This document shows positions 10,284 to 13,455 of a DNA stretch of 64,000 nt, in pieces. A program made the position numbers and the translations under genes. This DNA is from Allomuricauda sp. TMED12 (GTDB lineage Bacteria; Bacteroidota; Bacteroidia; Flavobacteriales; Flavobacteriaceae), in assembly GCA_002167435.2 (NCBI GenBank), contig NHBR02000140.1, positions 73,473 through 137,472 on the forward strand, read 5' to 3'. Every line of letters starts with the position of its first letter. Position 1 is the stretch's first letter. The notes beneath the pieces were generated by a model. The model was not told where the DNA came from and ran no database searches. It worked only from the letters and a program-made list of their open reading frames with translations.

Positions 10284-10892
10284 ATGGCTTTTGAATTACC
10301 TAAGTTACCGTATGCATACGATGCATTGGAACCACATATAGATGCAAGAACCATGGAAATCCACCATACCAAGCATCACAATGGCTACACCACTAAATTA
10401 AACGCTGCTATTGAAGGAACAGATTTGGCCGGAAAAGGAATTGAAGAAATCCTTACTGGTTTGGATATGTCCAACACCGCAGTTAGAAACAATGGAGGAG
10501 GATTTTTTAACCACAGCCTTTTTTGGGAAGTAATGTCACCAAACGGTGGTGGAACTCCATCTGGAGAATTGGCCTCCGCCATTGATGAAGCTTTTGGTTC
10601 TTTTGATGCGTTCAAAGAAAAATTCAGTGCCGCTGCGGGGTCAAGATTTGGGTCAGGTTGGGCTTGGTTGTGTGTGCACAAAGGAGGAAAAGTGGAAATT
10701 TGCTCCACTCCAAACCAAGACAATCCCATTATGCCAGGAGTAGGTTGTGGAGGTTATCCCATTTTGGGCTTGGATGTTTGGGAACATGCATACTATCTAC
10801 ATTATCAGAATAGAAGACCTGAATATATCTCAGAGTTTTTCAGTGTAATTAACTGGGATAAAGTTTCCGAGAATTACGCAGCAAGCAAATAA
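10284..10892 (+). CDS. Superoxide dismutase, Mn-type (or cambialistic)
   Basis: Converts superoxide to oxygen and hydrogen peroxide in the cytoplasm; no signal peptide is seen. The 202 residues match the Fe/Mn SOD family. The four metal ligands are His27, His77, Asp164 and His168, the last two inside DVWEHAYY. Residues that discriminate the metal point to manganese: glycines before NHSLFW in place of the Fe-type Gln, and Gln in TPNQDNP in the C-terminal half. Cambialistic use cannot be excluded. It is divergent from addA and followed by a very strong terminator. ATG start. Confidence 0.93.
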
Positions 10893-10914
10893 GAGTTGGC
10901 TTGCCTATAAAATC

Positions 10915-10947
10915 AAAGCCCTGCACGAAAGTGTGGGGCTTTTTTAG
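10915..10947 (+). terminator. Intrinsic terminator of the superoxide dismutase gene
   Basis: A 12-bp stem (10915-10926 with 10931-10942, two G-U pairs), GAAA tetraloop and a T run. The GAAA loop and U tract make this a strong Rho-independent terminator. Confidence 0.92.
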
Positions 10948-10960
10948 TTTTAGTTTTTTT

Positions 10961-11146
10961 AAATAGAAAAGGGCGAGGAAGTCCTCACCCTTTTCGTCCC
11001 AAATCTTACCATAAACTTAACCTACTTATGCTATGGCGAGACTAAAATACTGGTATTGTGAGAAATAACAAAGGTTTTTAAAAAATATTTTGCTTTTTGA
11101 AAGAAAAAGAAAACGTGTAGTTCATCGATAAAAATGTTAAAACCTT
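10961..11146 (-). ncRNA. Candidate small RNA, tandem copy 1 (conserved 39-nt core plus terminator)
   Basis: Read on the minus strand, an exact TAnnTTTG box (TATATTTG, 11160-11153) is followed by an AU-rich segment containing a TTTATCGATGAA box (11132-11121), then the conserved core at 11036-10998, then a terminator hairpin (10967-10979 with 10982-10994, one mismatch) and a T-rich tail. The core differs from the other two copies by a single base, T for C, and this changes CCAT/ATGG end pairing to CCATA/TATGG, a longer stem. No convincing ORF. Inferred to be a small RNA of about 185 nt; the family is not identified. Rfam Flavo-1 should be tested. Confidence 0.6.
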
Positions 11147-11451
11147 GGTAGTCAAATATAAAGAAGCCGGAGCACGCTCCGGCTTCTTTCCCCAAATCTT
11201 ACCATGAACTTAACCTACTTATGCTATGGTTCTCCAAATGTAAGCTAAGCAGTGTTTTTGTACCTAAGCTTTTAGATGAAACTCCCTTAAATGGGTTGAA
11301 GTGTTCAGCGAGGCCTGCTTATTGATAAATGTCAAGAAAACTAGGTGGGCTTTTTTCTGATTGGGAAAAGTGCAGAAAATAAAAAAGGTGGAATAGCTTC
11401 CACCTTTTTTGCCCCAAATCTTACCATGAACTTAACCTACTTATGCTATGG
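10998..11451 (-). repeat. Three direct copies of a conserved 39-bp element
   Basis: Copies at 10998-11036, 11191-11229 and 11413-11451 share the sequence read on the minus strand as CCATAGCATAAGTAGGTTAA followed by an ATGG-containing half ending in GATTTGGG. Copies 2 and 3 are identical and copy 1 has one substitution. Spacing is 193 and 222 bp, and the intervening sequence is not repeated. The ends CCAT and ATGG can pair. Confidence 0.9.
11157..11345 (-). ncRNA. Candidate small RNA, tandem copy 2 (conserved 39-nt core plus terminator)
   Basis: The conserved core is at 11229-11191 on the minus strand, directly followed by a perfect 13-bp terminator stem (11161-11173 with 11176-11188) and a T-rich tail. 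The 5' part is variable but holds TTTATCAATAAGC at 11329-11317, resembling the TTTATCGATGAA box of copies 1 and 3. The stem sequence of the terminator is unrelated to those of the other copies, so the core, not the terminator, is what is conserved. The 5' end is not defined; the stated limit is approximate. Confidence 0.58.
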
Positions 11452-11545
11452 CAGATACTAAAGTAGGATTGCGGGTTTCTGGTTGTATAAAAACCCGCTA
11501 TACTGCTAGTTTCATCGATAAAGTGCACGCTTTGCACTCTTTTTC
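11375..11545 (-). ncRNA. Candidate small RNA, tandem copy 3 (conserved 39-nt core plus terminator)
   Basis: Nearest copy to purF. The core is at 11451-11413 on the minus strand and is identical to copy 2 across 39 nt. It is followed by a perfect 13-bp terminator (11381-11393 with 11398-11410) ending in a run of six T. Upstream are an extra hairpin (8-bp arms 11471-11478 and 11491-11498) and the TTTATCGATGAA box (11522-11511). A further 6-bp hairpin at about 11523-11538 could end purF transcription or mark a processing point. It may be a purF 3' UTR product or an independent RNA. Confidence 0.57.
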
Positions 11546-11556
11546 TATGTAACTGA

Positions 11557-13455
11557 TTAATAAGCTCTTTGGTTCTTTCCCTCAAAAAAGTTGACAAAAG
11601 CCTTGTTGACTATTCTGTTTCCGCCGGGTGTTGGATAATTACCTGTGAAATACCAATCTCCCAAGTTGTGGGGGCAGGCACTGTGCAACCCTTCAATGGT
11701 CTGATAGATAATCTCAACCTCGGCATTGATACCTTCCGGACTTAAGATCTCACCAATCTTTTTTGAAATCTGTTTCGCCGAAAAAGGCGCATAAAATTCC
11801 TTAACATAATTTACCGCATCCTTGTTTGAAGGATCTGTCTGGGTCAAACACTTTTCATAGATTTCCTTGATCAAATGTGTAGTGCCATGATCTTCATGCA
11901 ATGCCTTAGCGGCCTTAAAAGCAACAAAATCTTCCAGCTTAGCCATATCAATACCGTAGCAATCAGGGTAACGTATTTGCGGAGCTGAGGAAACAACAAC
12001 AATCTTTTTCGGAGAAAGTCTATCCAATATTTTTAGAATACTTCGTTTTAATGTCGTTCCCCGAACAATACTATCATCGATAATAACAAGGTTGTCCGTG
12101 CTCTTTACAGAACCGTATGAAATATCATAAACATGGGTAACCAAATCATCTCTGCTACTATCTTGGGTAATAAAGGTTCTCAGCTTCGCATCTTTGATGG
12201 CCACTTTTTCTATGCGTGGCCTAACACTCAATATTTTATGAAGCTGTTCTCCCGTCATATTCGGCCCCAGGGCTAAAATTTGTTCCTCCTTTTTCTTGTT
12301 GAGGTAATTTTGAGCCTCTTTTACCATTCCAAAAAAGGAAGTCTCTGCTGTATTGGGGATATAGGAGAAAACCGCGTTCTCCAAATCGTTGTCTATGGAC
12401 TTCAATATTTCTGGAAATACCAGTTTCCCCAATTTTTTTCTTTCCTGATAGATTTCTTTATCACTACCTCGGGAGAAATAGATGCGTTCAAAAGAACAAG
12501 CCTTACGTTCGGTCGGCTCCAAAATCTTTTTCAGGGCCGTGGAACCACTTTTCTTGATGATAACGGCATGTCCGGGATCTAGCTCTTTTACATCTTCAAA
12601 ATTAACGTTGAATACGGTTTGTATTACAGGACGTTCCGATGCCACCACCACAACTTCATCATCTTGGTAGTAATATGCGGGTCGTATTCCCGCAGGATCC
12701 CTCATTACAAAGGCGTCACCATGGCCAATAAGTCCGCTCATGGCATAGCCGCCATCCCAGTTTTTAGAGGCCTTTCTCAAAATCTTTGCCACATTCAAAC
12801 GTTCTGCAATAAGGGCAGAGGCTTCTCTTTTTGTATATCCTTCTTTTTTGATTTGTTTGTAGAGCTTGGCAACGGCATCATCCAGAAAGTGACCGATTTT
12901 TTCCATTACGGTTACCGTATCGGCTTTTTCCTTGGGGTGCTGCCCAAGTTCCACCAGGTTCCCAAAGAGCTCATCAACATTGGTCATGTTAAAGTTACCC
13001 GCAACAATAAGGTTACGGTGCATCCAGTTGTTCTGTCTCAAAAAGGGATGTACATTCTCAATACTGTTTTTGCCAAAGGTGCCATAGCGAACGTGCCCCA
13101 TCAAAAGTTCTCCGATATAGGGAATGTTCTTTTTTTGCCAAGCCACGTCATCCTCATGTTCCGGATGCTCGGTCAAGGCAGTATTGATACGGTTGTTGAT
13201 TTGGGCAAAAATATCCTGAATGGGCTGTTGTTGGGCCGACCTTACGCGGCTCATGTACCTTTCTCCTGGATCCATGTCCATTTTAATACTTGCAAAACCA
13301 GCTCCGTCTTGTCCACGGTTGTGCTGTTTCTCCATCATTAGGTACATCTTATTTACGCCGTAAAATGCAGTGCCGTACTTTTCTTTGTAGTACTCCAGGG
13401 GTTTAAGCAAACGGATCAACGATATTCCGCATTCGTGCTTAATGGGATCACTCAT
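11557..13455 (-). CDS. purF: Amidophosphoribosyltransferase, long flavobacterial form
   Basis: First committed step of purine synthesis: PRPP and glutamine to phosphoribosylamine. The class II glutaminase domain comes first, with the nucleophile Cys9 in KHECGISL, which implies removal of eight N-terminal residues, then RGQDGAGF and the MGHVRYGTFG segment. The C-terminal phosphoribosyltransferase half has the PRPP loop VIIDDSIVRGTTLKRSI. At 632 residues it is longer than the roughly 500-residue E. coli enzyme; a long form is usual in Flavobacteriia. It lies 44 bp downstream of a PfkB-type kinase and upstream of the three tandem RNA elements. ATG start. Confidence 0.92.
   Translation of the reverse strand: MSDPIKHECGISLIRLLKPLEYYKEKYGTAFYGVNKMYLMMEKQHNRGQDGAGFASIKMDMDPGERYMSRVRSAQQQPIQDIFAQINNRINTALTEHPEHEDDVAWQKKNIPYIGELLMGHVRYGTFGKNSIENVHPFLRQNNWMHRNLIVAGNFNMTNVDELFGNLVELGQHPKEKADTVTVMEKIGHFLDDAVAKLYKQIKKEGYTKREASALIAERLNVAKILRKASKNWDGGYAMSGLIGHGDAFVMRDPAGIRPAYYYQDDEVVVVASERPVIQTVFNVNFEDVKELDPGHAVIIKKSGSTALKKILEPTERKACSFERIYFSRGSDKEIYQERKKLGKLVFPEILKSIDNDLENAVFSYIPNTAETSFFGMVKEAQNYLNKKKEEQILALGPNMTGEQLHKILSVRPRIEKVAIKDAKLRTFITQDSSRDDLVTHVYDISYGSVKSTDNLVIIDDSIVRGTTLKRSILKILDRLSPKKIVVVSSAPQIRYPDCYGIDMAKLEDFVAFKAAKALHEDHGTTHLIKEIYEKCLTQTDPSNKDAVNYVKEFYAPFSAKQISKKIGEILSPEGINAEVEIIYQTIEGLHSACPHNLGDWYFTGNYPTPGGNRIVNKAFVNFFEGKNQRAY

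Follow-up and report, generated by a model that had tools for sequence, protein, structure and literature searches.

Three predicted small RNA genes between purF and sod

The 64,000-nt stretch of Allomuricauda sp. TMED12 DNA analysed here (the window) carries, on the minus strand between purF and the superoxide dismutase gene (sod), three cores of about 41 nt (RCCATAGCATAAGTAGGTTAAGTTYATGGTAAGATTTGGGR), each with a promoter-like box and a 13-bp terminator. The copies are spaced, start to start, by 193 and 222 nt. The features of the locus, in window coordinates, are the following.

10284..10892, plus strand: superoxide dismutase gene (sod), conserved neighbour, convergent
10962..11037, minus strand: sRNA copy 1, T variant, last transcribed; predicted transcript begins at RCCAT and includes the terminator tail, 5' end placed by the -7 box
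10997-11037, minus strand: core of copy 1, 68.4 bits; 13-bp terminator stem at 10995-10966 (by folding)
11042..11049, minus strand: -7 box of copy 1, TATTTTAG, read from the sequence, positioned as in the family profile
11117..11127, plus strand: single reversed half-site upstream of copy 1, reverse-strand score 13.5; overlaps TTTATCGATGAA
11158..11230, minus strand: sRNA copy 2, predicted transcript
11190-11230, minus strand: core of copy 2, 71.8 bits; terminator stem at 11189-11160
11235..11242, minus strand: -7 box of copy 2, TACATTTG, exact TAnnTTTG, from sequence and profile
11274..11284, minus strand: proximal half-site of copy 2, GAGTTTCATCT, LytTR-like, matrix score 8.4
11294..11304, minus strand: distal half-site of copy 2, ACACTTCAACC, LytTR-like, matrix score 9.7
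11378..11452, minus strand: sRNA copy 3, first transcribed, predicted transcript
11412-11452, minus strand: core of copy 3, 70.4 bits; terminator stem at 11410-11381
11458..11465, minus strand: -7 box of copy 3, TACTTTAG, placed one base more upstream than the boxes of the other two copies
11496..11506, minus strand: proximal half-site of copy 3, GCAGTATAGCG, LytTR-like, weak, matrix score 7.9
11516..11526, minus strand: distal half-site of copy 3, GCACTTTATCG, LytTR-like, matrix score 12.9
11557..13455, minus strand: purF, conserved upstream neighbour

An earlier note on this DNA, made from the letters alone, described three minus-strand units of 39 nt, identical or one base apart, and this is what the alignment gives: over the 39-nt core (CCATAG...TTTGGG), copy 2 (11230-11190) and copy 3 (11452-11412) are identical (over the full core of about 41 nt they differ in the first base, R), and copy 1 (11037-10997) departs from both by one change, C to T, with a second change, the final G to A, when 40 nt are compared. 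The 13-bp terminator stems after the cores, read at all three copies, are unlike one another within this genome, and TTTATCGATGAA is present upstream of copies 1 and 3, both as stated in the note. The exact TAnnTTTG box, which it had assigned to copy 1, belongs to the middle copy (TACATTTG, 11242-11235); copies 1 and 3 have TATTTTAG and TACTTTAG, respectively. The note saw no ORF of importance here, and the two minus-strand frames with TTG starts (54 and 58 aa) merely overlap the copies and do not explain the cores. A possible MVRFG.. frame inside the core was discarded as well, given that a 1-nt indel in other genera breaks it. In the complete assembly (4.3 Mb, 150 contigs), the 40-nt core with up to three mismatches retrieves the three window copies and nothing else, and the reversed 40-nt core, used as a control at the same threshold, has no match.

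Each whole copy folds better than 200 of 200 shuffles (z -3.4 to -4.5), but the 5' hairpin alone is equalled or surpassed by 11, 10 and 4 of 200 shuffles in the three copies, so that most of the folding excess comes from the terminator.

Anatomy of the RNA gene

A profile of 369 distinct copies from 167 loci displays a -7 box of the form TAnnTTnG (T 84%, A 87%, T 98%, T 88%, G 75%), usually located 22-15 nt before AAGTAGG, and T-rich sequence at the place expected for a -33 element. The box ends 4 nt before the R of RCCAT, and this R is therefore the likely transcription start. A strong terminator follows 213 of the 221 copies of the named-genome loci (0 of 221 when each is shuffled once), with the stem beginning 30-33 nt past the start of AAGTAGG in 212 copies; these further copies beside terminators are what the earlier note had proposed to look for. 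The predicted RNA is about 75 nt long (72-78 nt) and consists of a 5' hairpin (RCCAU-ARC-A-UAA[GUAGG]UUA-A-GUU-Y-AUGGU) that would display the loop UAAGUAGGUUA, a single-stranded linker (UAAGAUUUGGGG; general form UA(A)GAUUUGGGG) and the terminator. Loop and linker are nearly invariant between genera. In the hairpin alignment of 21 distinct rows, 96.5% of the cells pair and two cells are doubly changed, measures all of which shuffles often reach; among the stem variants, the GGC/GUC and GAC/GUC forms (L058, L133) fit the hairpin, and one pair is lost in the ACCAG and ACCATT forms.

The T variant represented by copy 1 is the last copy in 49 of 59 multi-copy loci, compared with 7 of 117 earlier copies, which suggests that the last copy is a distinct orthologue. 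The word CACAATACCAG precedes the box in 22 of 59 last copies, compared with 1 of 117 earlier copies and 0 of 45 single copies. Separately, a block similar to TTTGTTATTTCTCACAATACCAG lies ahead of the -7 box of the last, T-variant copy (around 11050-11085 in the window) in several genera and is nearly absent elsewhere, which suggests a second regulator.

The tandem arrangement of the copies in one intergenic region would also be expected of a DNA repeat element, or of cis-acting attenuators, with no function in trans. Given, however, that each copy has its own promoter-like box and terminator, that the next gene, sod, is convergent, and that single-copy loci exist, this explanation is hardly credible. 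The alternative offered by the earlier note, sibling RNAs that have their seed in common and differ in their terminators, agrees with the fixed -7 box, the terminators in 213 of 221 copies and the family-wide seed, as well as with the seed complement carried by two conserved partners, an mRNA leader and a second RNA (see below); on this reading they would probably act in trans.

Distribution, synteny and classification

A search of the relatives, as suggested in the note, detected the 22-nt loop pattern (up to two mismatches, up to seven matches per genome) in 237 of 299 Flavobacteriaceae genomes (212 of the 249 good ones). These represent 190 of 236 genera, and the usual location is between purF and sod. 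The named genomes contain at least 118 stretches with the pattern, and the matches listed include single-copy loci and the genera Allomuricauda/Flagellimonas, Maribacter, Zobellia, Aquimarina, Winogradskyella, Salegentibacter and Flavobacterium. In 111 of the 123 loci with enough sequence, purF lies directly upstream on the same strand, and in 60 of 70 loci the downstream neighbour is sod, in convergent orientation. When the 41-nt core is turned into a covariance model (R1; E up to 0.1), matches are obtained in 49 of 246 genomes of the order, including 32 of the 40 genomes of the family, and in 50 of 296 genomes of the phylum. In both scans, all matches above 31 bits are inside the family, and no credible match was seen outside it (the others reach up to 25.5 bits in the order and 24-30 bits in the phylum). 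The three best non-family matches of the phylum scan (24-30 bits) have no terminator in the next 50 nt and look spurious.

When all models of Rfam 15 are compared with the window, no family covers the copies, or any other part of it, at its gathering score. The note had wondered about the Flavo-1 class (RF01705), which is absent both at gathering score in the window and from the list with E <=10 for 10890-11600. Likewise, nothing exceeds the gathering score in the nine loci that surround the second set of sites and five loci of the second RNA (RNA-B, see below) and the leader, and the sub-threshold lists look dominated by the terminator. The core of the C variant, searched as three 19-nt strings (DNA, RNA and complement), was found in no paper in a literature text search, and a search of the literature on sRNAs of these bacteria yielded nothing relevant beyond the works cited here. 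Taken at sequence level, the RNAs apparently represent a real, old and so far unnamed sRNA family of the Flavobacteriaceae.

The closest described anatomy is that of the Bacteroides FopS RNAs (RF04319), which comprise 14 paralogues of about 65-70 nt that pair near start codons (PMC11697453). Like FopS as described there, the RNAs here come as several paralogues with a conserved 5' part, different downstream parts and their own promoters, to which the in silico analysis adds a terminator for each. Membership in the FopS family would account for this similarity of anatomy and size, and for a sub-threshold match to copy 3 (20.6 bits), in which the aligned block is UUCAUGGUA..AGAUUU. However, the gathering score of the family is 56, and the common block is unusual in the C variant alone (5 and 14 of 2000 shuffles reach it), not in the T, Flavobacterium-type or L058-type forms (121 to 1092 of 2000). 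Moreover, the 5' part of FopS is described as single-stranded (PMC11697453), whereas a 5' hairpin is predicted here in all five whole copies and all three cores that were folded. The RNAs here also have another seed, lie mostly at one syntenic locus and have a candidate target that is a T9SS protease, rather than the SusC described for FopS. Shared membership thus appears very improbable.

Other comparisons are looser. Rfp18 of Flavobacterium psychrophilum is described as an sRNA linked to secreted proteases (PMC9723704), and thus resembles the RNAs here in being flavobacterial and in its protease connection; by description, which is the level of this comparison, Rfp18 pairs via a third stem-loop, unlike the RNAs here, which would consist of one hairpin and the terminator.

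Arrays of sibling sRNAs are familiar from LhrC and Qrr, which likewise involve several near-identical copies under partly different control; we know of no sequence relation between either of these and the RNAs here.

Phased LytTR-like half-sites upstream of the sRNA genes

A motif search in the upstream regions of the sRNA genes returned GCATTTYATC, in phased direct repeats. The half-sites lie mainly at -61/-62 and -41/-42, counted from 22 nt before AAGTAGG, the usual start of the -7 box, and among the 221 copies, 103 pairs are 20 bp and 19 pairs are 21 bp apart. The number of matches per copy (1.995, compared with 0.235 after shuffling; 221 copies) is optimistic because the matrix was trained on the same upstream regions; the phasing is not imposed by the training. 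In the window, copies 2 and 3 carry both half-sites, one of them weak, and copy 1 has just a reversed one farther up.

The motif is nearly the site of E. coli YpdB, a LytTR response regulator that binds a direct repeat of GGCATTTCAT; LytTR sites are described as 9-11-nt repeats with 11-13-nt spacers (PMC4847170), and the spacing given in PMC6193735 is similar. The general form of such sites, two direct repeats with a period of about 21 bp upstream of a promoter, is found in the promoters of the sRNA genes and in those of the subtilase genes considered below. The activator of the sRNA genes is therefore likely to be a LytTR regulator. The repeat is akin to that of the YpdB/LytTR regulon and the period, 20-21 bp here, is a point of difference; binding of a LytTR protein is a prediction.

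A subtilase mRNA as the candidate target

Genome-wide, paired half-sites are not enriched in the genome of the window (27 matches, compared with 36 for the reversed control). Only one of the 27, recognised by reading, has a promoter and a leader of the right form; it precedes a gene for a 731-aa protein with Peptidase_S8, fn3 and T9SS sorting domains. The 5'UTR of this subtilase gene (CCAAATCTTACC...ATG) is complementary to the sRNA, and the complementarity is conserved across the genus. In the genome of the window, the leader (TAGTCCAAATCTTACCTAAACTTAATT-ATG) can be aligned as the complement of a 22-nt stretch of copy 1 (UUAAGUUUAUGGUAAGAUUUGG) from which it lacks a single base, and two further leaders (L419 and L420) contain an unbroken 19-nt complement to this copy. 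The pattern CCAAATCTTACNNV detects subtilase leaders in at least 15 of 24 genomes of the genus, a lower bound because it hides leaders with T at the last place (G001, G018 and others).

A sample free of the pattern was obtained from the neighbourhoods of RNA-B in 18 further genomes, two more regions being left aside as selected before, and tblastn identified the subtilase gene in 17 of the 18; the remaining region (L432) shows no subtilase on a contig that ends about 3.6 kb past RNA-B. Exact CCAAATCTTAC is present in 15 of these 17 leaders and GTAGTCC in all 17, and the remainder of the leader varies. The half-site matrix was trained on the sRNA upstream regions alone. When it is applied to 32 subtilase promoters, 31 of them have a match at -52/-51 and 27 have one at -31/-30; 15 of the 32 had been found via the leader pattern or the half-sites. 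The half-sites are about one helical turn nearer in the subtilase promoters than in the sRNA genes.

Among 794 start regions, called mechanically from the window, 80 named-genome loci and 20 regions (40 nt upstream counted), the subtilase leaders occupy ranks 1-11 by duplex energy, followed by 15, 16, 18, 25, 27 and 88; the top-ranked leaders are orthologues and not independent. From TAGTCC on, the leader of the window's genome is predicted to pair at -33.0 kcal/mol with copy 1, -27.9 with copy 2 and -29.1 with copy 3, with a net cofold gain of -22 to -18, and a shortened pair with copy 1 reaches -32.0 kcal/mol, a value attained by 0 of 5000 leader shuffles. No compensatory change between sRNA and leader was seen in this genus. 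The conserved translation-start complementarity concerns one gene in one genus.

A few side observations concern other sequences. A 237-aa exonuclease-like gene (named by eye) has high duplex scores and is not claimed as a target because the complementary bases code for the conserved beginning of the protein. L414-L418 and relatives, also present in the genome of the window, contain a repeat similar to GCGAACG.AACGAAGTG.AGTGCTGCAAGC followed by CCAAATCTTAC, which looks intergenic. In five genomes of the genus (L049-L053), 2.5-8 kb lie between the first and second sRNA copies, with a gene of about 490-610 aa followed by a smaller one. One of the five large proteins matches Tox-MPTase3, one matches DUF6973 and three have no Pfam match; by eye, they have lipoprotein-like starts and, with the smaller genes, recall polymorphic toxin and immunity pairs. 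Two of these leaders have CCCAAATCTTA or CCCAAATCT before the start, and that of L050 would pair with the sRNA at -32.6 kcal/mol.

The sRNA would act in trans, the 3' arm of its hairpin and the linker pairing with the subtilase 5'UTR (CCAAAUCUUACC...AUG); such pairing would cover the start region and probably block translation. The opposite sign, activation, would apply if the sRNA opened a 5'UTR hairpin (GUAGUCC/GGACUAC) around the start codon. Folding does predict this hairpin, the leader could be conserved for its sake (GTAGTCC/GGACTAC, the former present in all 17 leaders of the synteny sample), and deletion of Rfp18 is reported to have lowered two metalloprotease mRNAs (PMC9723704). Nevertheless, we regard activation as unlikely: with a start about 5 nt after the box, as placed in the sRNA genes, the transcript would lack most of the stem's 5' half and the leader would be open, and the predicted pairing with the sRNA takes in the UTR as far as the start codon.

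RNA-B, a putative second RNA with the seed complement

Of 15 sites in relatives that match with 1-3 mismatches, 12 turned out to be the reverse complement of the seed within another conserved non-coding region, RNA-B. A model of this region (R2) matches in 69 of 71 genomes of the genus and was not detected in the assembly of the window; in the family scan, which had no positive control, it matched in 0 of 120 genomes. RNA-B lies downstream of hflX on the same strand (two loci mapped), and a terminator-like hairpin forms its end. The distance between RNA-B and the subtilase leader is 1.5-7.4 kb in 13 of the 15 genomes whose leader was detected by the pattern; one of the others has RNA-B on another contig, and in that of the window it was not found. 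A reversed half-site occupies one fixed place in 16 of the 17 first-found RNA-B and in 25 of 34 of the wider set; by the strict motif, a half-site core is upstream in just 18 of 34, and the promoter of RNA-B is a putative one. The word GTTCACAACAAAANTTTA, by which the first 17 RNA-B were found, lies upstream (for example in L267, before the R2 match) and recurs with few changes in other RNA-B loci; it could be another protein site or the -33 region of RNA-B.

The anti-seed CTTAACCTACTT complements AAGUAGGUUAAG exactly and is retained in 32 of the 34 RNA-B looked at (of the 69 found), and in 28 of 30 not selected by a pattern containing ACCTAC. The flanks diverge into different forms, several of which extend the complement into the linker (CAGAUYUUAC). 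Predicted duplexes of RNA-B from G018 with the window copies have energies of -39 to -41 kcal/mol and a net gain of -15 to -19. Among the exact sites of the pattern CTTAACCTACTTNV in 36 genomes of the genus, 31 of 48 are RNA-B. The simplest reading of this complementarity is that RNA-B, as a putative separate transcript, is a decoy for the sRNA; it might instead be a target regulated by the sRNA. RNA-B would resemble sRNA sponges and anti-sRNAs in carrying the seed complement, and differ in that it is apparently a separate gene with its own terminator, seen in one genus.

Outside RNA-B and the sRNA genes, the complement of the loop 12-mer occurs at 17 sites in the 36 genomes, compared with 154 for the reversed word, so that there is no support for a large set of targets bound via the loop. 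Possibly, the loop-complement 12-mer is avoided in the genomes of the genus, as judged against a control that does not keep dinucleotides. One such site, a perfect 12-nt loop complement in the genome of the window (L308, 1501-1522, contig C7), is about 20 nt before a PorP/SprF-like gene (by eye), which follows a gene whose product has a gliding-type C-terminus. We do not propose this site as a target, the same 14-mer being present outside RNA-B in two others of the 36 genomes.

The near-invariance of loop and linker across genera could also mean that both are protein sites and that the chief role of the sRNAs is to sequester an RNA-binding protein (RbpB-like or another), the complementarity being secondary or due to chance. 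FopS RNAs bind RbpB (PMC11697453), and the presence of several copies would be in keeping with titration. It would not be expected from protein binding, however, that conserved partners carry the reverse complement rather than the same sequence, and the subtilase gene has the same promoter sites as the sRNA; a role mainly as protein decoys accordingly seems rather improbable.

A proposed circuit

The reading that we consider probable is that LytTR-driven sibling sRNAs pair with the subtilase start, probably repressing it, and that RNA-B titrates the sRNAs in this genus. The three copies would be transcribed independently into sibling sRNAs of about 75 nt, a LytTR-type (YpdB-like) response regulator switching on copies 2 and 3, and copy 1 having a different promoter. 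Repression would be relieved by RNA-B, which, as an antisense decoy, would bind loop and linker and so release the target. Because the sRNA, the protease and probably RNA-B share the sites of the regulator, the circuit would be a feed-forward loop limiting or timing the protease. The copies, boxes, terminators, phased sites and the conserved complementarity are read directly from the sequences; transcription, the identity of the regulator, pairing inside the cell, repression and titration are predictions made from them. A wider version, in which the LytTR regulator drives the protease together with redundant sRNAs that silence it, RNA-B soaks up the sRNAs, and the family serves as a general timer of secreted proteases and antagonistic proteins, is put forward tentatively, as a possibility we would not bet on. 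This version builds on the conservation of the sRNAs throughout the Flavobacteriaceae and on the toxin-like genes with related leaders that the arrays of some genomes also contain.

The Flavobacteriaceae are major degraders of polymers in the sea and in soil and, to our knowledge, targets have been established for few Bacteroidota sRNAs. Here, a loop that is nearly unchanged across most sampled genera and has no matching Rfam entry is joined by a concrete candidate mRNA partner. Together with a predicted class of regulator and a putative natural decoy, this would make a directly testable circuit of secreted-protease control, in bacteria where post-transcriptional control is little mapped.
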